DNA from: Halobellus sp. LT62
Lineage (GTDB): Archaea; Halobacteriota; Halobacteria; Halobacteriales; Haloferacaceae
Assembly: GCF_037031285.1 (NCBI RefSeq)
Contig: NZ_JAYEZO010000001.1
Coordinates: 310,001 to 374,000, forward strand
DNA: 64,000 nt
Direction of reading: 5' to 3'
The translations under genes and the position numbers were made by a program. Of this stretch, positions 18,074 to 28,990 are shown in pieces. The notes under the pieces are model-generated. The model was not told the DNA's origin and searched no databases. It saw only the letters and a program-made list of their open reading frames with translations. Numbering within the stretch: position 1 is the stretch's first letter; each line of letters starts with the position of its first letter.

Positions 18074-18847
18074 ATGGTCGAGGCGTTCGCCGTCGCGAGC
18101 GGCAAGGGCGGCACCGGGAAGACGACGAGCACGCTGGCGCTCGGGATGGCGCTCGCCGAGCGGTACGACGTCACCGTCATCGACGCCGACACCGGGATGG
18201 CGAATCTCCTCTTTCACGCGGGACTCGACGACGCGGACGTCACGCTACACGACCTGCTGGTCGACGAGCGCGAGGTCCCGGTCGCCGACGCGGTGTACGA
18301 CCGTTTCGGGATGTCCGTCGTTCCGTGCGGGACGAGCCTCGCGGCGTTCGAGGCGGCCGATCCGGGCAGACTCAGGGACGTCGTCGCCGAACTCGCCGCC
18401 GACGCCGACGTTCTCCTGTTGGACTCGCCCGCGGCGCTCGGCTCGAAGAGCGCCGTGCTCCCCGTCGTGCTCGCCGACCGCGTCGTGGTCGTGTTGCAGC
18501 CGACGGTTCCCTCGCTGTCGGACGGGCTGAAAGTCCAAGAGTACGCACGCTCGTACGGCTCCGAGACGGCCGGCGTGCTGTTCAACCGCGTGCGCCCCGA
18601 CGAGGACGTCGAGGCGATCGGCGAGCAGGCGGCGCGGTACTTCGGCGGGACGACGCTCGCGAGCGTGCCCGAGAGCGACGCGGTTCGGGCGGCGCGGCGG
18701 GCGGGCGAACCCCTGCTCGCGCACGCGCCCCGCGATCCGGCGGCGGACGCGTTCCACGAGGCGGCGTCGAACTTAGAGGTTCGGACCGGCGACGCGGGCG
18801 ACGTCGCGGACCGCTTCCGGAGCGCCGTCGTTCCCGACCGGCCCTGA
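18074..18847 (+). CDS. MinD/ParA-type P-loop ATPase
   Basis: 257-residue deviant-Walker ATPase of the MinD/ParA group. The motif GKGGTGKTTS (residues 10-19) has the signature lysine before GGTGKT; VIDADTGMANL is switch I and LLLDSPAALG the Walker B region. C-terminal PESDAVRAARRAGEPLL matches MinD-like proteins. Haloarchaea carry several MinD paralogues linked to positioning of motility, chemotaxis and pili structures, not division. It is followed 2 bp later by an unknown protein and lies 3 kb before a pilus operon, so a pilus-positioning role is possible but unproven. Confidence 0.85.
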   Translation: MVEAFAVASGKGGTGKTTSTLALGMALAERYDVTVIDADTGMANLLFHAGLDDADVTLHDLLVDEREVPVADAVYDRFGMSVVPCGTSLAAFEAADPGRLRDVVAELAADADVLLLDSPAALGSKSAVLPVVLADRVVVVLQPTVPSLSDGLKVQEYARSYGSETAGVLFNRVRPDEDVEAIGEQAARYFGGTTLASVPESDAVRAARRAGEPLLAHAPRDPAADAFHEAASNLEVRTGDAGDVADRFRSAVVPDRP

Positions 18848-18849
18848 CG

Positions 18850-19404
18850 ATGGTCGTCGACGGCCACATCCCCGAGGGCGAACTGGTTCGCTCCCGCACC
18901 GACGCCGACGTCGGCGATACGCTCGCCGGGGTGCTCGACCGCGAACTCACCGGTTACGTCGTCTTCGAGCCGCAGGATTCGATCCTCCTCGGCGACGACG
19001 AGCGCGCGGTGCTCACGTTCGACTCCGGAATCCCTGTTCTCGCGTATCACCCCGCGAGCGACACCGGCGGCGACGACGCGCTCGACGCCCTCTCCGGAAG
19101 CCTGTTCCACGCCGCGCTGTACGAACTCCCGCCCGACGCGCTGGAGTCGGCGCACACCGTCGAGGACCTCCGAGTCGATCCCACCGCACCGGCGAGACGC
19201 CTCGCCGACGACGCGACGCTCGCGGATCGAACGCGTGAGGTCGCTCCCGAGGATCGACTCGTCGACGAGCGCGACGCGAGCGCCGTCGCCGATTTTCTCG
19301 CGGACGCCGAGCGGATCGAGGAGATCAAAACCGACGCGCGAGCGGAGGCGCAGGCCCGCGCTGCCGAGTGGGGCCTGCGCGGGCAACTCGACGAGAGAGA
19401 GTAA
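18850..19404 (+). CDS. Conserved-looking hypothetical protein next to MinD-like ATPase
   Basis: 184-residue acidic soluble protein starting 2 bp after the MinD-like stop, so cotranscribed. It begins MVVDGHIPEGELVRSRTDAD and has an alternating beta-rich centre (LTGYVVFEPQDSILLGDDERAVLTF across two strands) and a C-terminal charged helix with ADAERIEEIKTDARAEAQAR, likely coiled. No family is recognised. Tight linkage suggests it is a partner or target of the ATPase. Confidence 0.7.
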   Translation: MVVDGHIPEGELVRSRTDADVGDTLAGVLDRELTGYVVFEPQDSILLGDDERAVLTFDSGIPVLAYHPASDTGGDDALDALSGSLFHAALYELPPDALESAHTVEDLRVDPTAPARRLADDATLADRTREVAPEDRLVDERDASAVADFLADAERIEEIKTDARAEAQARAAEWGLRGQLDERE

Positions 19405-20236: not shown

Positions 20237-21286
20237 CTACTTGAGACCGCGGCTCGCCAAGTGGTATCTGAGGACGTCTTTCGTCCCCGCGACGAACTGG
20301 TCCATATCGACGGCGTCGACGCGGTCGCTCAGAGAGACGAGCCGGCGATACTCCTCGTTCCACTCGTCGAGCAGTTCCCTCTCGATGTCGGCGGCGCGGA
20401 TCCGATCGATCGACTCCTCGACGTCGGCGACAGCCTCGTTTTCCCGACGGGTGAACTGGTCGGCGTCGACGAGGCCTCCTTCGAGGGCGGCGACGACGAC
20501 GCCGGAACTGACATCGCCCTCGCGTAGTTCGCGCTCCCACGTGCTGAGCCAGTTTCCGATTCGCGCCATCCGCTGTGCGGGGTCGACGACCGCGCGGAGC
20601 GCGTCGAGTTCGCCGGTGTAATCCACCGACGCGTGCATCAGATCGATATCGAGGTAACTGTTCATCCCCATATTGTGGACTTCGTAGTGGCGCAGGTCCG
20701 TCGCCGTCGCCAGATCCGGACGGTCGATGACGAGCGCGCTGTACTCTATCGCCGTGGTGATCTGCCGGACATCGAACCGAAAGAGCGGCGCGTACCGATC
20801 GAACGAGGGGCTCCGTTCGAGCCGATCGAGAAGCGTCTCCCACACCGACCGCGCGAACGCGACGTACGCCTCGTTTATCGCCCCGTCGACGGACTCATTG
20901 ACTGATGAATCCGGTCGCGGCGTCCCGACCGGTCCGCCGCCGATGCCGGAACGGACGAGCTCACAGACCACCTCGAACGTCTCGTAGTCGGACTGGCTCT
21001 CGAGAAGATCGTCGAGAACCGTGATAAAGAGAACGAGTATCGTCTTGTCCGTCGCGACCGTCTCGCGACGGTCGTTGTCGACGACGGGCACGGTGTTTTT
21101 CGGTGCGAGGCGGTGTACCCACCGCCACATAAACCACGGACGCGCGCCGTCGAGCGATTGGTACTCCGCGACGAGTTCGCGAAGGACCGGCGGCAGTTCG
21201 TGGTCGCGCACCGATTCGAGGAGAGCGACCGCACGGTCACCGTCGACGGATTCGGCGACACTCTGGGCGGGGTCTCTGAGTGTCAC
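20237..21286 (-). CDS. Terpene synthase-like protein (class I isoprenoid synthase fold, inferred)
   Basis: 349-residue helical protein carrying the residue pattern of class I terpene synthases. LDDLLE supplies an Asp-rich motif (Asp92, Asp93, Glu96). NWLSTWERE supplies an NxxxTxxxE metal triad (Asn245, Thr249, Glu253). Arg199 is exactly 46 residues before the triad, the position of the diphosphate-sensor Arg in bacterial enzymes, and an Arg-Tyr pair (340-341) occurs about 87 residues after it. Length fits bacterial sesqui/diterpene synthases. The start is GTG 21286. It would cyclise a prenyl diphosphate; substrate and product are unknown. It could be an inactive family member. Confidence 0.7.
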   Translation of the reverse strand: MTLRDPAQSVAESVDGDRAVALLESVRDHELPPVLRELVAEYQSLDGARPWFMWRWVHRLAPKNTVPVVDNDRRETVATDKTILVLFITVLDDLLESQSDYETFEVVCELVRSGIGGGPVGTPRPDSSVNESVDGAINEAYVAFARSVWETLLDRLERSPSFDRYAPLFRFDVRQITTAIEYSALVIDRPDLATATDLRHYEVHNMGMNSYLDIDLMHASVDYTGELDALRAVVDPAQRMARIGNWLSTWERELREGDVSSGVVVAALEGGLVDADQFTRRENEAVADVEESIDRIRAADIERELLDEWNEEYRRLVSLSDRVDAVDMDQFVAGTKDVLRYHLASRGLK

Positions 21287-21416: not shown

Positions 21417-21470
21417 GGAATACGAGGGAACCAACGGTATGACTGACCGACCGCTCTCCGGGGACCGGTG

Positions 21471-23882
21471 ATGAATTCGGAGACGAAGCAGGCCGGAGCC
21501 GGATCCGAGGTACCGACGGTTCCGAGCCCCGAACCGCCCGACAGTCCGAACGCGTGGTACGCCCCGGCGATCCGCGCGCAGTACGAGGTGACGCCCGGAG
21601 TGGTGACGACGATCGCGGACGTCAGCGACGGCGTCGGATTCTCTTATCACGTTCGAGAACCGGCAGTGGACGCGGCCGCAGAGCGCGCGTTGGCGTCGGT
21701 GACGGCGTACTTTTCGAGCGTCGAGATCCGGCGACCGCTGACCCGGCAGGGGGCCGCAGCGCACGCGGCGGCCGGAATGCCGGCAAAGTACGAGCGCGTG
21801 CTCGATCGGCTGTTGGACGTCGCACCGGCCGCCCGGCGTCGCATCGAGTACTACGCGATGTGCGAACTGCGACTGCTCGGTTCCGTGACGCCGATCGCGC
21901 TGGACGACCGCGTCGACGTCGTCGACGTCGAGGGCGAGACCGACGGCTCGCTCGTCGTGCACACCGAGAACTACGCGCCCGCGGTCACGGACTTTCGCGC
22001 GGACGCGGACTTCGCCACGCGGGTCGCGGGCGAGCGCCTCCGAGACTACACGGTCTCGTTCGCCGGGTTCGACGTGAGCGTGGTCGTCCATCGGGACCGG
22101 CTCCTCGGCGACGACCGCTTCGACGCCAAGTACGCCGTGCTCGAACCCGACCTGCTGCCGGGCGACGAGGAGCTGATCGCCGAGTGCAAAGAGCGGATCT
22201 GGGAGGCGAACGTCGAGGAGGTTGTCGACGACCGGACCGCGTTCATCCGCGAGCGGGCGCGTGGCTTTCTCTCGCGGCGACTCACCGCGCGCAACACCCG
22301 AGCGTGGTTGGAAGCGACCCGGTATCGCCTCCGCGGCGCGCTCTCGTCGTACGGCGTCGGCGTCCCGCCGGTCGACCGGCGCTACGCGCAGGCCCGCCTC
22401 GACGACCTCGTGTACTACGTCCTCAGAGATTACGTCGGCGAGGGCGTCCTCACGATTCCGATCCGCGATCCGCACCTCGAAGACATCGAGGCCAACCGGG
22501 TCGGCGAGCGGGTGAAAGTCGTTCCGCGCGCTGACGTCGTCCGCGCGGGCGAACGCGTCCCGACGAATCTCACCTTCGCCGATGAGACGAGCTTCGTCAA
22601 CGTGGTCACCCAACTCGCCGCCGCCGACGGCGTCGAACTCAGCGCGAGTCAGCCGTCGGCGAAGGTGAACCTCCGCCCGGAGGGCGTCGCGCCCGACGCC
22701 TCGGGCCACGGCGAGACCATCCGCTGCGCCGTCGCCCTGCCCGTCATCTCCGAGGACGGCCCGCACGTCTCGATCCGCAAGCAGGCGTCGTCGCCGCTGA
22801 CGCCGATCGACCTCGTCGAGTTCGGTTCGATTCCGACCGAACTGGTGACGCTCCTGTGGCTGCTGTACGAACACCACCGCGTCGTGCTGTTTTCGGGACC
22901 GACGGGCGCGGGCAAGACGACCCTGATGAACGCGCATATGCCGTTTATTCCCTACGACCACCGTCCGATCAGCATCGACGAGGGGTCCCGGGAGGTGTAT
23001 CTCCCCCACGAAACGGGCGTCTCGCTGACGACGCGCGAGCACGAGAACGAGTACAAACGGGTGTCGATGGCGGATCTGATGACCGAGGCCAACTACCTGA
23101 ACCCCGACGTCGAGGTGATCGCCGAGGTCAACACGCCCGAGTCGTTCGAAACCTTTGCAGAAGTGCTCAACACCGGCCACGGCGTCGTCGGCACGACGCA
23201 CGCCGAGGACGTCGAGACGCTCGTCAATCGGGTCGTCGAGCAGGGTCTCCCGGTCTACCTCCTGCGCGAACTCGATTTGGTCGTCTTCCCCCGGCGGGTC
23301 GACGGTGAGCGCTACGTCGGCTCCGCGGTCGAACTGCTCACCGAAGCAGAGTACGAGGAGCTTCCGGCGTCCGCGCGAACGGGCGTCGTCGAGAAGAACG
23401 GAACGACGCTGTACTACAACACGCTGCTGTGGCGCGAGACGGACGGGTCGTTCGCGATGGCGTACGATCACCCACAACTCGGTGGGGAACACGCCGCGAC
23501 CGAGGGGGAGACGCACCGGAGCGCCCTCCGCGTCTTCCACCGGATCGCCGCGGCGACGGACCGCGATGTCGACGACATCGAGCGGGAGTTCCGCCGCAAG
23601 CGCGGCTACGTCGAATACCTCCTCAGAGAGGGCGAACGCGACGTCGACCGGCTGTTCGGATTCCTCTCCGATCTTCGGACCGACGAGGCGGCGACCGTCG
23701 AGCGCGTTCGTCGGCAGCACGCCCACCGGGCAGATGGGGGCGTCGATCGCGACGGCGACACCGGAGCGGATAATGGAAACGACGACGCCGAAGCGGATAG
23801 CGAAAGCGACGACGCCGAAACAAATGGCGGAAACGAGTCTGCCGACGCGAACGACGAAACCGGCGGGAGCGCCGTCCGGTGA
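21471..23882 (+). CDS. pilB: Type IV pilus assembly ATPase PilB-like
   Basis: 803-residue motor of a type IV pilus-like system. The first 330 residues are a long haloarchaeal N-terminal region. The ATPase core holds GPTGAGKTT (residues 476-484), SIDEGSREVYLP (Asp box), VEVIAEVNTPESFETFAEVL (Walker B; the usual GEVRG is AEVNT) and NTGHGVVGTTHAED (His box). The C-terminal 50 residues are a repetitive, Asn/Asp/Glu-rich disordered tail. ATG 21471 is chosen; GTG 21468 is one codon upstream. First gene of a seven-gene operon; its stop overlaps the pilC start by 4 bp. Confidence 0.93.
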   Translation: MNSETKQAGAGSEVPTVPSPEPPDSPNAWYAPAIRAQYEVTPGVVTTIADVSDGVGFSYHVREPAVDAAAERALASVTAYFSSVEIRRPLTRQGAAAHAAAGMPAKYERVLDRLLDVAPAARRRIEYYAMCELRLLGSVTPIALDDRVDVVDVEGETDGSLVVHTENYAPAVTDFRADADFATRVAGERLRDYTVSFAGFDVSVVVHRDRLLGDDRFDAKYAVLEPDLLPGDEELIAECKERIWEANVEEVVDDRTAFIRERARGFLSRRLTARNTRAWLEATRYRLRGALSSYGVGVPPVDRRYAQARLDDLVYYVLRDYVGEGVLTIPIRDPHLEDIEANRVGERVKVVPRADVVRAGERVPTNLTFADETSFVNVVTQLAAADGVELSASQPSAKVNLRPEGVAPDASGHGETIRCAVALPVISEDGPHVSIRKQASSPLTPIDLVEFGSIPTELVTLLWLLYEHHRVVLFSGPTGAGKTTLMNAHMPFIPYDHRPISIDEGSREVYLPHETGVSLTTREHENEYKRVSMADLMTEANYLNPDVEVIAEVNTPESFETFAEVLNTGHGVVGTTHAEDVETLVNRVVEQGLPVYLLRELDLVVFPRRVDGERYVGSAVELLTEAEYEELPASARTGVVEKNGTTLYYNTLLWRETDGSFAMAYDHPQLGGEHAATEGETHRSALRVFHRIAAATDRDVDDIEREFRRKRGYVEYLLREGERDVDRLFGFLSDLRTDEAATVERVRRQHAHRADGGVDRDGDTGADNGNDDAEADSESDDAETNGGNESADANDETGGSAVR

Positions 23883-25882
23883 GCGGCGAGGACGTCGCGG
23901 AGCCCGCACAGCCGGGAGCGACCCGCTCGTCGCCGGCGGGCGAGGAACCGATCTCATCCGATCCGTCGCGCGCCGAGCGCTCGCTGGGCCCGTTCGACCG
24001 CGCCGCGTACGCGCTCTTCGCCAGCCGCGCGGACTCGCGTCGGCACGAGCGCGACCGACGCGCCTACCGCGGCACCAACCTCGCGGTCGCGTTCGATCTC
24101 TACGTCGCCCGCGTGTACGCGCTCTCGCTGCTGCTCGCGGCGCTCGCCGCCGGTGGCGTCGTCGCCGTCGGCTCGGCCCTCCCCGCGGGCGTCGTCGAGT
24201 CCGGGGTGGCGACGCTCCTCGAACGCGCGGCCCGGATCGGCGGTCGCGACGTCGGCAGCGGAGTCGCCGCCGACGCGGTCTCGCTCTCGGGGCGACAGCT
24301 CACTCTGCTGGTCGGCACGTCTGCGCTCCTCGTCGCGACCGGCGTCCAACTCGCCGTCGTCTACGCCGGCGGCCGATACCTCCGCTGGCTCACCGCCGCG
24401 CGCCGCGCGAACATCGGGCGAACGCTTCCGAGCGCGGTCCGCTACCTGAACGTCCTCGCGTCGGGCAGCGACGGCCGCCGCGCGATGCTCCGGCGCGTCG
24501 CCGACACCGACGCCTACGGCGAGACGGCCGTCGCGCTCCGCAAAGCGCTCAACACCGCCGCGATGACGGGCAACGTCGACGAGGGGTTGCGACGGGTCGC
24601 CAGAGACACGCCCGCCCAAGACAGTCTCGCGCCATTCCTGCTGAAGTTCCGCGAACACGCCGATCAGGGCTCGGACTCGCTCAGAGAGTACCTCTCGATG
24701 GAGAGTCGGATGCTCAGACACCAGCAGGACCGGGACCGACAACGCGCGGAGGGATTTCTCGAACTCCTCGCGGAACTGTTCGTCGTCCTGCTCGTGCTCC
24801 CGGCGCTGCTCGTGATCGTCCTCACGGTGATGAGCATCATCTCGCCGGGGCTCTCCGCGCCGGTTCGGACGCCGCTGGGTTCGGTGACGCTTCGTGCGCT
24901 GGCCGTTTACGGGAGCGCCGGATTCATTCTCGCGGTCGGGCTCGCGACCGCCGCGCTCGTCTCGCGGCTCCGACCGCCGGACCAACACGTCGTCTATCGG
25001 CGACCCGCGAGCGCGCTCGGGACGCTGCGGACGGCCACGCGGAACCCCGCCAGCGCGGCCGCCGCGTTCGCGCCCCTCGGCATCGCCGGGTTCGTCGCGT
25101 CAGTGAGTCTCGGCGTCGACACGGTGGTCTCGCTTTTGGTCGGCTACGTCGGGTTCTCGATCCCCGTCGGACTGGTCGCAGTCCGCCGCGCCCGCCTCGA
25201 CGACGCGAAGGACCACGAGCTGAAGGACTTCGTCCACGCCGTCTCCGGGCACGTCAACCTCGGCCGCCCGTTCTCGGCGGCGGTCGACCACGTCGCCCGC
25301 GACGTCGACCTCGGGGCGCTGAACCCCGACGTCGCCGATCTCGCGCTGAACCTTCAGCTCACGACGCCGACGGTGGACGTCGAGACTGATCTGCGGACCG
25401 CTGCGCTCGATCGCTTCGTCGAGCGGGTGGGGACGCCGATGGCCGAGCAGACCGTCGGGCTGGTGATCGGCGCGCTCGACGCGGGCAGCGACACGGCGGT
25501 CGTCTTCGAGACGCTGCAGGGCGAGGTCGGTCGCCTCTACCACGAGAAGCGGGCGCTCCGCTCGGGGATGTTGGTCTACGTCGCCGTCGGCTGGACGACC
25601 GCCCTCCTCGTCATCGGCATCAGCGCCGCCACGAGTGCCAACGTCTTCGCGGGGTTCGATCGACTCGCGACGATGTCCGAACTCTCCGGCGTCGCGGTCG
25701 ATCCCGGGGCGGTCGACCTCGCGCGCGATCAGTACCGTGTTTACGTCACGACGCAGGCGACGATGCTCGCCTCCGGGTGGTTCGCGGGCGTCGCCAGCCG
25801 CGGGCAGTACGAGGCGCTGTTGCACTCGGGCTGTCTCGTCGCCGTCTGTCACGTCGTTTTCACGGGGATGGGATTGGTATGA
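23879..25882 (+). CDS. pilC: Type II secretion F / PilC-like membrane platform protein
   Basis: 667-residue inner-membrane platform on which PilB acts. It has two T2SF-type cytoplasmic helical domains (about 175-290 and 440-540), each followed by hydrophobic spans, plus an early span near 85-105. Motifs such as LKFREHADQGSDSLREYL and DAGSDTAVVFETLQGEV fit the duplicated GspF fold of archaeal PilC/TadC. GTG 23879 overlaps the pilB TGA (GTGA). Its TGA overlaps the next ATG, so translation is coupled. Confidence 0.92.
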   Translation: MSGEDVAEPAQPGATRSSPAGEEPISSDPSRAERSLGPFDRAAYALFASRADSRRHERDRRAYRGTNLAVAFDLYVARVYALSLLLAALAAGGVVAVGSALPAGVVESGVATLLERAARIGGRDVGSGVAADAVSLSGRQLTLLVGTSALLVATGVQLAVVYAGGRYLRWLTAARRANIGRTLPSAVRYLNVLASGSDGRRAMLRRVADTDAYGETAVALRKALNTAAMTGNVDEGLRRVARDTPAQDSLAPFLLKFREHADQGSDSLREYLSMESRMLRHQQDRDRQRAEGFLELLAELFVVLLVLPALLVIVLTVMSIISPGLSAPVRTPLGSVTLRALAVYGSAGFILAVGLATAALVSRLRPPDQHVVYRRPASALGTLRTATRNPASAAAAFAPLGIAGFVASVSLGVDTVVSLLVGYVGFSIPVGLVAVRRARLDDAKDHELKDFVHAVSGHVNLGRPFSAAVDHVARDVDLGALNPDVADLALNLQLTTPTVDVETDLRTAALDRFVERVGTPMAEQTVGLVIGALDAGSDTAVVFETLQGEVGRLYHEKRALRSGMLVYVAVGWTTALLVIGISAATSANVFAGFDRLATMSELSGVAVDPGAVDLARDQYRVYVTTQATMLASGWFAGVASRGQYEALLHSGCLVAVCHVVFTGMGLV

Positions 25883-26634
25883 CCGGCGCTGGCAAGGCCA
25901 CGGCCCCTGCGACGATTTCCGGGGACCGCGCACAGACCGCGGTCGTCGGCGTCGCGATACTGCTCGGCCTCACCGTCCTCGCGGTCGGCGGGTTGACGGC
26001 GACCGCCGGCTCGATCGTCGAGGACGGTGCCGCCTCCGCGTCGGCGACCCGCGTGAGCGACGACCTCGAAACCGCGCTCGCGCCGGGCGGCGGCGAGCGG
26101 GAGACGACCGTCGAACTGGCGACCGGCACGGTTTCAGTCGTGAACCGGACAGTGTGGCTCTTGGACGACGACGGGGTCGTCTGGGCGGGCCACGCCGGGG
26201 CGATCACCTATGCCGACGGCGAGCACCGCGTCACGGGCTTTGCCGGTGCCGTCGTGCGGAGCGACGAGCGCCGCAGCCGCGTGGTCGCGCCGAGTCGGAT
26301 CGCCCCGGCCGACGGGGCGTTGTACGTTGGCGTCCCGGTGTTGAACGCGAGCGGGGCCGACGGCATCGCCACCGGCGACCACCGGCTCGCGGTGACGCTC
26401 CGAACCGACGCCGAGACCGACCGCCGGCGACTTCCGGCGGCGGAGTACCGCGTCGGCGTCGAGACGACGACGCCGGCCGTCTGGGAACGTCACTTCCGCG
26501 AGCGCGGAGCCACCACGACCCGGCGGGACTTCGACGGCGACGGCGTCCCGAGCGTCGTGGCGTCGTTCGAGGGCGAGCGCGAGGTGCACCTCGTCGTACA
26601 CGACGTCCGACTCGACGTGGCGGTGGGTCGATGA
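25879..26634 (+). CDS. Pilin-like protein 1 (class III signal peptide)
   Basis: 251-residue probable pilin subunit of the operon. After a polar leader, the motif DRAQTAVVG runs into a hydrophobic helix (VAILLGLTVLAVGGL), the form of an archaeal prepilin peptidase site, with cleavage expected after the Ala of RAQ. The rest is a beta-rich extracellular domain with no cysteines. It resembles the haloarchaeal DUF7289 type (family number from memory, uncertain). ATG 25879 overlaps the pilC stop. Confidence 0.8.
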   Translation: MTGAGKATAPATISGDRAQTAVVGVAILLGLTVLAVGGLTATAGSIVEDGAASASATRVSDDLETALAPGGGERETTVELATGTVSVVNRTVWLLDDDGVVWAGHAGAITYADGEHRVTGFAGAVVRSDERRSRVVAPSRIAPADGALYVGVPVLNASGADGIATGDHRLAVTLRTDAETDRRRLPAAEYRVGVETTTPAVWERHFRERGATTTRRDFDGDGVPSVVASFEGEREVHLVVHDVRLDVAVGR

Positions 26635-27257
26635 AAGAGCCCGATTTCGGATCGACGGCCCGGAACCGAACTGGATCGACGGCTCCCGCCGACCGCGGCC
26701 TCTCTCCCGTCGTCGGCAAGACGCTCGAACTCGGCGTCGGCGTGCTGTTCGTCGCGCTGTTGACGACGACGTTGTTCGGCGGCCTCGCGCCCGAGTACCG
26801 CGACGCGGTCGGTGCCGAGCTCGGCGACCGCGCGCTCGTCGCCGCCGCGGAGCGAGCGGAGACTGCGGTCCCCGACGGCGACCTCGTCGGTCGGGTTGCT
26901 GCGGCCGGGGTCGAAGCCCCCATCGTCGAGCGTCGTATCGCGCTCCGGCTCCCGGAAACGATCCGCGAAGATTCCTACCGGATCGTCGCCGAATCGACGA
27001 AGGATGAGTCCACCGCAACTGCTTCGTCGCCGAGCGAATCGACGCTGGCGCTCGTCCATCCCGACCCGCGGATCGGTGGTCGTATCCGCCTCGCGGTCCC
27101 GGCATCAGCGACGGTAACGGGGTCGATTTCCAGCGAGTCGGCGTCTGCGATTCTCGTCTACGGGGATGTCGACGGTCTCGTCGTGCGACTCGTCGACGAG
27201 GGAGAGTTCGTTACCGCCGGTCCGGAGTCGGTGGCTCAACGGGGGACGACGCGGTGA
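26631..27257 (+). CDS. Pilin-like protein 2 (class III signal peptide)
   Basis: 208-residue pilin-like protein. ADRGLSPVVG followed by hydrophobic LGVGVLFVALLTTTLFGGL is the classic archaeal pilin start (compare RGVSPVIG in PilA pilins). The exported part is short, acidic and beta-rich with a Ser/Thr-rich loop around residues 125-135. ATG 26631 overlaps the stop of pilin 1 by 4 bp. Probably a structural or minor pilin. Confidence 0.8.
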   Translation: MKEPDFGSTARNRTGSTAPADRGLSPVVGKTLELGVGVLFVALLTTTLFGGLAPEYRDAVGAELGDRALVAAAERAETAVPDGDLVGRVAAAGVEAPIVERRIALRLPETIREDSYRIVAESTKDESTATASSPSESTLALVHPDPRIGGRIRLAVPASATVTGSISSESASAILVYGDVDGLVVRLVDEGEFVTAGPESVAQRGTTR

Positions 27258-27979
27258 ATCCGCTCGGACTCGGGAGCGGCGAGTCCGTGAACGCTCGCGC
27301 GCAGGCGAACCTCGTCGGTTTCGCCGTGGCGATCCTCGTCGTGACGACGGTGACAGTCGCCGGCGGTGCGCTCGCGAACGACGCGCTGATCGACGCAGAC
27401 CGCCACCCTGCGACCGCCCACGCGGCCGAACGCCTCGCCGAGCACCTCGTCGACGCCGACGCGACCCACACGCGCGCCGAGAACGACCTCGATCAGTCCG
27501 CCGTCTCGAATCTCACCGCCGCCGACCTCGACGAGGCGGTCCCGCCCGTTCGGGGTCGGCCGATTCGCGTCACGCTCGGCGGCGACGTCCTCGTCGAGCG
27601 GGGGAGCGCAGACAGCGACGCCGGTGGGGAATCGGTCGTCGTCGAGCGCCGCGTGCTGGTGACGCGGGACGTCCCGCGAACGGAACAGGTCGCACTCGAC
27701 GAAGCGAGGAGAGTCGTCGTTCTCGACGACCACGACGGGCGACTGGTGATAGACGTCGATTCGAGCGGCCCGCACAACGTGCGAACCATTATCGCGGGCG
27801 GGCGGGTCGTGCTTCACGAACCATCGGGGCTCGACGGCCGGTATGCGGTCGCCGTCCCGCGACAGTATCCCCTCCGCGTCGCCTTCGAGTCCGGCGGCTA
27901 CGGGGGCGGGACGGCGACCGTCGACTGGACCGCTCGAAACGCGAGCGCCGAGCGGGTGGAGGTGAGGGTCGGTGGGTGA
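27254..27979 (+). CDS. Pilin-like protein 3 (class III signal peptide)
   Basis: 241-residue pilin-like protein beginning with GTG 27254, which overlaps the previous TGA. ARAQANLVG precedes the hydrophobic helix FAVAILVVTTVTVAGGAL, giving the same RAQ-type cleavage site as pilins 1, 4 and 5. The exported domain is beta-rich (VVERRVLVTRDVPRTEQVAL and an EPSGLDGRYAVAVP stretch). No cysteines. Confidence 0.78.
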   Translation: MNPLGLGSGESVNARAQANLVGFAVAILVVTTVTVAGGALANDALIDADRHPATAHAAERLAEHLVDADATHTRAENDLDQSAVSNLTAADLDEAVPPVRGRPIRVTLGGDVLVERGSADSDAGGESVVVERRVLVTRDVPRTEQVALDEARRVVVLDDHDGRLVIDVDSSGPHNVRTIIAGGRVVLHEPSGLDGRYAVAVPRQYPLRVAFESGGYGGGTATVDWTARNASAERVEVRVGG

Positions 27980-28415
27980 GCGGCACCGCGGAGGACCGAC
28001 TCGCCGGCGGGGCGAGCGGGCGCAGCTCGCAACCTCGTTGGTCGAGGCGACCGTCGGGGCGCTGTTGATCCTCTCGGTCGTCGCGGGGTTCGTCTGGGTG
28101 CCCGCGGACGCGACGCAGTCGGCGACGGAACTGGACCGAATCGCGGGTGACGCGCTCGCGATGCTGGACGCGGAACCGCCCGAGAGCGACGGCCACAGCC
28201 GACTCACCGCAGCCTGCCGGTCGCCGGACTCCTTCGCGGTGGAGCGCGAGGCGCTCGGAAATCGGCTCGACGCCGCGCTGCCGACCGGCGTCTTCGGGCA
28301 GATCGAGACGCCGCACGGGGCGGCCGGATCGCCGCCACCGAACGGCGTTCCGAGCGGCGAAGCGACGCTGTCGACGGCGCGCTGCACCGTCACGCTCCGG
28401 GTGTGGTACGTGTGA
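27972..28415 (+). CDS. Pilin-like protein 4 (class III signal peptide)
   Basis: 147-residue small pilin-like protein. GERAQLATSLVEA leads into hydrophobic TVGALLILSVVAGFVWV. The mature part has two cysteines (AACRSPDS and TARCTVTLRV) that could form a disulfide. GTG 27972 overlaps the end of pilin 3 by 8 bp; a stop-overlapping start is consistent with the rest of the operon. Size suggests a minor (initiator) pilin. Confidence 0.75.
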   Translation: MGERHRGGPTRRRGERAQLATSLVEATVGALLILSVVAGFVWVPADATQSATELDRIAGDALAMLDAEPPESDGHSRLTAACRSPDSFAVEREALGNRLDAALPTGVFGQIETPHGAAGSPPPNGVPSGEATLSTARCTVTLRVWYV

Positions 28416-28990
28416 GTCGCGGTATTCGGTCCGACGAGGCGCGAACCGACCGCGCGCAAGTCGTCCTCGTCGCCGCCGCGGTCGTCGCGGTCGCGTTCCT
28501 CACGATGACGCTCGCGTACGCCCAACTCGGGTACGACGGCGACAGAACCGGCGCGGGCGCGGTCGAAATCGCCTCGATCGACGACGTCGAACGAAGCATC
28601 GAAGCATCGTTCCGTGCGTCGGTTCGCGACGAGGCTACCACCGACCGTGACTCGGTGCGGGGCGATCGCGATTCGGCGTGGCGTGATCGCGACACCGTCG
28701 TTCGGCGAATTCGAGCGGACGTCGCGGGAGACCTCGACCGGTTGGAAGGAGTTCACGCCGAGGCCGATCGCTCGCTCGTCGTGTCGTTCGACGATGCGGC
28801 CGCGAGCGCGTGGAGCGAGGCGAACTGTCCGGACGGTCGCGGGCGGGCGTTCGGACCGTGTCAGTCGATCGACGGCGTCGTCGTTCAGCAGCGGGCGGGC
28901 GAGTTCACGCCCGTCGCGGCCGCGTTTCGGATCCGCGTCGTCTCTCCCGCGGAGTCGACGACGGCGACGGTCGTCGTCTCGGCGGTGTGA
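28412..28990 (+). CDS. Pilin-like protein 5 (class III signal peptide)
   Basis: 192-residue pilin-like protein ending the operon. TDRAQVVLVAAAVVAVAFL combines the RAQ cleavage motif and the hydrophobic helix. The exported region includes a run of Arg-Asp rich repeats (DRDSVRGDRDSAWRDRD) and two cysteines (ANCPDGRG, FGPCQSID). GTG 28412 overlaps the previous TGA by 4 bp and is preferred to GTG 28403. Confidence 0.75.
   Translation: MSRGIRSDEARTDRAQVVLVAAAVVAVAFLTMTLAYAQLGYDGDRTGAGAVEIASIDDVERSIEASFRASVRDEATTDRDSVRGDRDSAWRDRDTVVRRIRADVAGDLDRLEGVHAEADRSLVVSFDDAAASAWSEANCPDGRGRAFGPCQSIDGVVVQQRAGEFTPVAAAFRIRVVSPAESTTATVVVSAV

Follow-up and report, generated by a model that had tools for sequence, protein, structure and literature searches.

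A seven-gene operon of Halobellus sp. LT62 is very likely the ortholog of the haloarchaeal PilB1-C1 adhesion pilus operon

A 64,000-nucleotide stretch of the Halobellus sp. LT62 genome (genome size 3.2 Mb; contig C1, positions 310001-374000), hereafter the window, carries a seven-gene operon coding for the motor of a type IV pilus and for five small pilin-like proteins (P1 to P5). This operon is very likely orthologous to the PilB1-C1 operon for a type IV pilus in Haloferax volcanii (HVO_0620-HVO_0619-HVO_0618 onward), which corresponds to pil-2 of Halobacterium salinarum and to subclade 4C of Makarova et al., and it would work as an adhesion filament. In the present genome the identification is based on gene content, gene order, orthology, signal motifs and the presence of a prepilin peptidase gene; co-transcription and the adhesion role of PilB1-C1 come from the literature on the orthologs (PMC6491452, PMC4292770), and the role of each pilin is inferred. 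The system, real and conserved, is therefore already known, and the interest lies in small testable details rather than in the system itself. We found no description of four of these: a Lys7 in P2 and a Glu8 in P4, a nearby MinD gene pair, a mini-ORF (open reading frame, ORF) in Halobellus, and an altered Walker-B region in PilB.

The seven genes are all encoded on the + strand, with successive overlaps of 4, 4, 4, 4 and 8 nucleotides (nt) from pilB through P4 (Table 1). The P4/P5 overlap is 4 nt if P5 starts at the in-frame GTG 28412, or 13 nt from the GTG 28403; the 4-nt arrangement is the typical one, being present in 65 of 71 complete relatives. The matches of PilB and PilC both lie above the curated Pfam cut-offs, and a secretion ATPase thus adjoins its platform protein. 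An earlier note on this DNA had proposed that pilB, pilC and five overlapping pilin-like genes form one operon, which is confirmed at 21468-28990 (+). No literature naming DUF7289, DUF7266, DUF7263, DUF7262 or DUF7261, the five families to which the small proteins belong, was found in a text search.

Table 1. Genes of the pilus operon and associated features in the window
Feature	Position	Strand	Evidence or remark
pilB, VirB11/PilT-like assembly ATPase	21468 (GTG) or 21471 (ATG)..23882	+	PF00437 (T2SSE) E 1.6e-21
pilC, membrane platform protein	23879..25882	+	PF00482 (T2SSF) E 7e-15
P1, pilin-like, DUF7289, GDRAQTAVVG	25879..26634	+	PF23960 E 5.7e-57
P2, pilin-like, DUF7266, N terminus DRGLSPVVGK	26631..27257	+	PF23928 E 1.8e-40
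P3, pilin-like, DUF7263, ARAQANLVG	27254..27979	+	PF23924 E 2.4e-64
P4, pilin-like, DUF7262, ERAQLATSL	27972..28415	+	PF23923 E 1.7e-47
P5, pilin-like, DUF7261, DRAQVVLVA	28412 (GTG) or 28403 (GTG)..28990	+	PF23922 E 4.1e-52
MinD/ParA-family ATPase, 2 kb upstream of the operon, putative association	18074..18847	+	PF01656 E 1.7e-17
Partner gene, 184 amino acids, directly after the MinD gene	18850..19404	+	no Pfam family at E <= 0.01
Predicted leaderless mini-ORF, 10 codons, MTDRPLSGDR	21439..21471	+	TGA overlaps pilB start; TATA-like TTTAAATA box ~22 nt upstream

In archaeal class III signals, cleavage follows a small residue that has a basic one before it, and the mature protein often begins with Q. 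All five pilin precursors have such a signal followed by a hydrophobic N-terminal helix, and the motif is kept in the 113-114 rows of each family. In these alignments (113-114 loci per family), P1, P3, P4 and P5 show R-[A/G]-Q, with the Q in 98-100%, and P2 shows R-[A/G]-[V/L]-[S/T] at the equivalent site, which agrees with the previous observation of R-A-Q ahead of the hydrophobic helix in four of the small proteins and of DRGLSPVVG in P2. When the window was scanned for [KR][GAS][QLIVA] ahead of a hydrophobic stretch, seven matches were obtained among 351 six-frame ORFs of at least 60 amino acids, and the only four bearing a Q were P1, P3, P4 and P5, so that the RAQ pattern is not due to chance. 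P2 fell outside the seven matches, its Lys and Glu probably depressing the hydrophobicity score. Because R-[A/G]-Q is a known cleavage pattern, RAQ is an ordinary class III motif, and the proposal that it is the badge of a special minor-pilin set is rejected, the RAQ-bearing P1 being as PilA-like as P2. A candidate for the prepilin peptidase PibD, with PF06847 and PF01478 both over the cut-off in a single open frame of 401 amino acids, lies elsewhere in the genome (G000:C2:155-156 kb).

The operon is kept across Halobacteria together with its small genes, as the earlier note had anticipated; the finding it had named as contrary, orthologous operons always devoid of these genes, did not arise. 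Among the named loci, which take in 80 of 138 pilC-related stretches, 73 harbor the seven genes in identical order (71 clean; in the other two, L087 and L144, a frame is split). Two loci lack pilB (L092 and L146), one lacks pilB and P5 (L123), and in L100 pilC is alone, on a sequence stretch ending shortly after this gene. The order from pilC through P1-P5 is also kept in all 36 further loci (L038-L073), although L055 has no adjacent pilB and a few others have one that appears shortened, interrupted or split. The nearest pilC relatives among the named loci are those of Halobellus species, reaching 93% identity along the full query, and mean identity inside the five pilin families is just 40-49%. 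DUF7263, the family of P3, was detected in 46 of 116 genomes of the class (45 over the cut-off), in 13 of 196 genomes of the phylum, every one of them in the taxonomic order of the host, and in H. volcanii only among 14 control genomes. DUF7289, the family of P1, is multi-copy and present in 113 of the 116 genomes, as well as in Methanosarcina acetivorans. Disrupted or partial relatives do exist, for example L074, a remnant from the same genus as the window with partial P3, P4 and P5 only, in which pilB, pilC, P1 and P2 were not found. They could suggest that the locus is decaying and non-functional in the present genome as well, which is scarcely credible given that its seven frames are open, its junctions intact and the invariant residues present.

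The link with the published PilB1-C1, pil-2 and subclade 4C pilus comes from the primers printed for H. volcanii pilB1-C1 (PMC6491452). The pilB1 start-codon primer matches exactly the start of pilB in Haloferax prahovense, Haloferax mucosum and Haloferax marisrubri, and the end-of-pilC1 primer shows 1-2 mismatches in the orthologous operons of the same three species. H. volcanii PilB1-C1 and the window operon are alike in their orthologous pilB and pilC, in the overlapped first small gene and, judging from the congeneric loci, in their pilin families (PMC6491452); the differences noticed are only those between species, for example the mini-ORF ahead of pilB, which Halobellus has and which the Haloferax loci did not show. 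H. salinarum pil-2 (OE1347R-OE1332R) is described as seven co-transcribed ORFs over 6.9 kb found in haloarchaea only (PMC4292770), and thus resembles the window operon in its seven genes, its length and its taxonomic restriction; the seven genes of a Halobacterium sp. (L141) span 6.8 kb, in line with this size. Three of the pil-2 genes are called prepilins in that paper, whereas the present alignments show a conserved class III motif in five. Finally, subclade 4C is a hybrid system specific to Halobacteria, in which the motor goes with several pilins, some of them also present in the PilB4 system, and with a PilA-like protein as candidate major pilin (PMC4858521, Figure 4); we noticed no real difference between this description and the window operon.

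H. volcanii pilB1 mutants are adhesion-defective and are rescued in trans, and PilB1-C1 fails to support PilA[1-6] pili (PMC6491452). This was the only paper found on HVO_0615 to HVO_0620, and wider literature searches recognised no study of the individual small pilin-like proteins. The suggestion that the operon codes for a dedicated machine serving adhesion, secretion or DNA uptake stands for adhesion, which is shown or implied for the orthologous operons in PMC6491452 and PMC4292770; nothing was found for DNA uptake or secretion.

The motor itself presents an unusual feature. AE[IV]N[TS] occupies the Walker-B region in 107 of 112 PilB family rows, with four further rows missed by the pattern, whereas four paralogous ATPases of the same genome carry GE[VI]RG at this place. 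The nearest solved sequences are 2oap (annotated as a type II secretion system protein), FlaI (4ii7) and CpaF; GE[VI]RG is likewise present in 2oap and CpaF, and FlaI has GEIRD. In the PilB of the window, the Walker A and THA stretches and the glutamate are retained, and as the H. volcanii ortholog is functional in vivo, the altered region is a variant and not the sign of a dead motor. At the left edge of the window, another secretion ATPase (3-1346, - strand, running off the edge) has the usual GEVRG motif and belongs to a system apart from the operon, a separation that had already been proposed.

We compared the profiles of P1-P5 with a set of 10 PilA proteins caught by motif from 30 fetched loci. 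The probability of similarity was 87% for P1 and 83% for P2 but less than 2% for P3-P5; over the first 60 columns it reached 93% for P1 and 91% for P2, with at most 3% for P3-P5. None of the five satisfies the gathering score of Pilin_N (PF07790), P1 having a match at E 0.039 (15.3 bits against 25.2) and no match being listed for P2-P5. The idea that the small proteins are minor pilins is correct only in part, P1 and P2 being PilA-like at the N terminus and P3-P5 not, and the placing of the RGLSPVVG protein, P2, close to a major pilin is supported by the resemblance of its N terminus to PilA. P2 is the best candidate for the major pilin and would fit the one proposed for subclade 4C. P1 is likely a minor pilin of the arCOG02911 type, a proposed minor pilin (PMC4858521), its multi-copy family fitting the arCOG02911 description; both assignments are made by correspondence of description.

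In the proposed working of the pilus, the five precursors would enter the membrane via their N-terminal helix and would be cut by PibD just after the A or G, leaving as mature residue 1 a Q in P1 and P3-P5 and a V or L in P2. The PilB ATPase, beneath the PilC platform, would then extrude the subunits into a thin surface filament promoting surface attachment, with P2 most likely forming the filament, P1 as a second PilA-like subunit, and P3-P5 as minor pilins that may prime or cap it. Several observations weigh against this reading. In three loci, from Natronomonas and two Halorubrum (L149, L152 and L157), pilB-pilC occurs without these pilins within the available sequence. Orthology to pilB1-C1 is deduced indirectly, from the primer match in congeners and from locus organisation, and the assignment to subclade 4C from the published description and gene content. 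As regards P2 as the major pilin, P1 is slightly above it in PilA similarity, and the genome has four Pilin_N matches elsewhere, three of them over the cut-off.

These Pilin_N proteins would also be expected if the five small proteins formed no filament of their own but a priming or tip complex on filaments whose main subunit, a PilA-type pilin, is encoded at another place. A pilB1-C1 mutant is rescued by PilB3-C3, the machinery that assembles PilA pili (PMC6491452); moreover, the models of P4 and P5 are alpha/beta, as opposed to the all-beta type of one archaeal pilin family. We consider such a complex unlikely nonetheless, the N terminus of P2 being PilA-like and a major pilin being proposed inside the subclade 4C system itself (PMC4858521).

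The structural models of P4 (57 of 76 available relatives plus the window) and P5 (56 of 75 plus the window) have pLDDT values of 86.6 and 87.7, respectively. Foldseek gave nothing at E <= 0.001 with either model, and the P5 profile had no relative by sequence among solved structures (best E 0.45). In a second structural comparison, P4 reached Z 7.7, with sensor domains leading, many ribosomal proteins below them and no pilin among the rows shown; P5 reached Z 4.2, with four pilin or pseudopilin chains in the first six rows (Z 3.2-3.8). These matches to the predicted models are all too weak for a fold relative of P4 or P5 to be named. EpsI/EpsJ and a competence pilin of Thermus are among the best rows of P5, and the operon has several pilin-like proteins, none of them conspicuous as a major pilin, so that a short pseudopilus serving protein secretion or the uptake of DNA might be envisaged. 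This is very improbable: the Z values of P5 are under the trusted level of the comparison tool itself, no secretion or DNA-uptake gene was seen among the annotated or most frequent neighbours, and mutants of the ortholog are defective in adhesion (PMC6491452). In the P5 region at 28448-28987 (+), two conserved Cys (CP...FG.C) lie ahead of the C-terminal strands, and a disulfide is possible.

A second operon of the same genome, of the PilB4 type (L076, G000:C1:284000-303000), also has pilB, pilC and five pilin-like genes (S1 to S5), in an order kept in other genomes. It was taken out of the P1-P5 sets before the profiles were compared with the S proteins. Four correspondences were obtained, P1-S5, P2-S4, P4-S1 and P5-S3, whereas the pilin order is different, the ATPase of L076 is longer and has GEIRG, S4 has no Lys7, and S1 and S2 carry acids at position 5 or 6. 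A one-to-one match of all five pilins was rejected, P3 having S1 as its best match with a probability of only 41-47% and S2 being nearer to S1 than to any P protein. After removal of the first 32 residues, P1-S5 and P2-S4 stay at 94-99%, while P4-S1 drops to 25-31% and P5-S3 to 6%; the P4-S1 and P5-S3 correspondences therefore depend mainly on the N-terminal half. Five curated families of unknown function can be linked to a single described pilus whose gene order is fixed, and four of the five also to another one, which has a different motor.

Two further possibilities concern the details of the machine: the MinD ATPase and its 184-amino-acid partner could place or time the pilus, and Lys7 of P2 could pair with Glu8 of P4 in the core, forcing an obligate P2-P4 priming complex. 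Each could be true independently of the other; that at least one of them is true is conceivable but rather doubtful. Lys7 is invariant in P2 (113/113 rows) and Glu8 is present in 113 of 114 P4 rows, the remaining one being a fragment with a gap, whereas P1, P3 and P5 are nearly free of charged residues over mature positions 1-22 (position counts use 105 of 113 rows for P1 and 112 of 114 for P5). The pairing is weakened on two counts: the paralog S4 is devoid of Lys7, and 105 of 113 P2 rows have an acid adjacent to Lys7 within its helix. The latter allows a simpler reading, in which the charge would be self-compensated in a P2 homopolymer and Glu8 of P4 would act like the Glu5 carried by bacterial pilins.

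The MinD and partner pair lies near the operon in 27 of the 80 loci, from 11 label groups, and the partner gene in 30, 27 of them with MinD; one or both are present in 28 of the 65 loci having at least 5.5 kb upstream. The label groups are our own grouping by organism label and, some being bins of metagenome-assembled genomes, are not genera. In Halobellus the pair is upstream of the operon; in the other loci it is downstream, on the opposite strand. Among 902 neighbour ORFs from 14 loci, the MinD (11) and partner (12) families reach the largest numbers of labels. Cobalamin genes accompany the operon too (14-16 loci, 7-8 labels), which weakens a functional MinD link: because they partly travel along, shared synteny is a rival explanation. 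From its gene organisation, the pair in the window is probably MinD2/HVO_0596; in H. volcanii MinD2 is HVO_0595, with HVO_0596 downstream (PMC11588486). In the accessible part of this paper HVO_0596 shows no growth, shape or motility phenotype, the deletions of minD2 and hvo_0596 are described only with regard to shape, growth, archaella and motility, and adhesion appears only within a reference. The MinD link, if true, would offer a possible function for this partner protein without reported phenotype. The outcome is a defined five-part kit for dissecting major and minor pilin roles, with two residues (Lys7 and Glu8) and a candidate positioning factor in the MinD pair.

The predicted mini-ORF ahead of pilB has an equivalent of 10-11 codons, ~22 nt after a TATA-like box, in all eight Halobellus loci (the window and seven others), and in 7 of these 8 it starts with MxDR (R at position 4, D before it). 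Over all loci, a mini-ORF with a TATA-like box was present in 10 of 74. Finally, an ORF at 20237-21286 (-) has a weak terpene-synthase-like match (PF19086, E 0.0027), under the curated cut-off.

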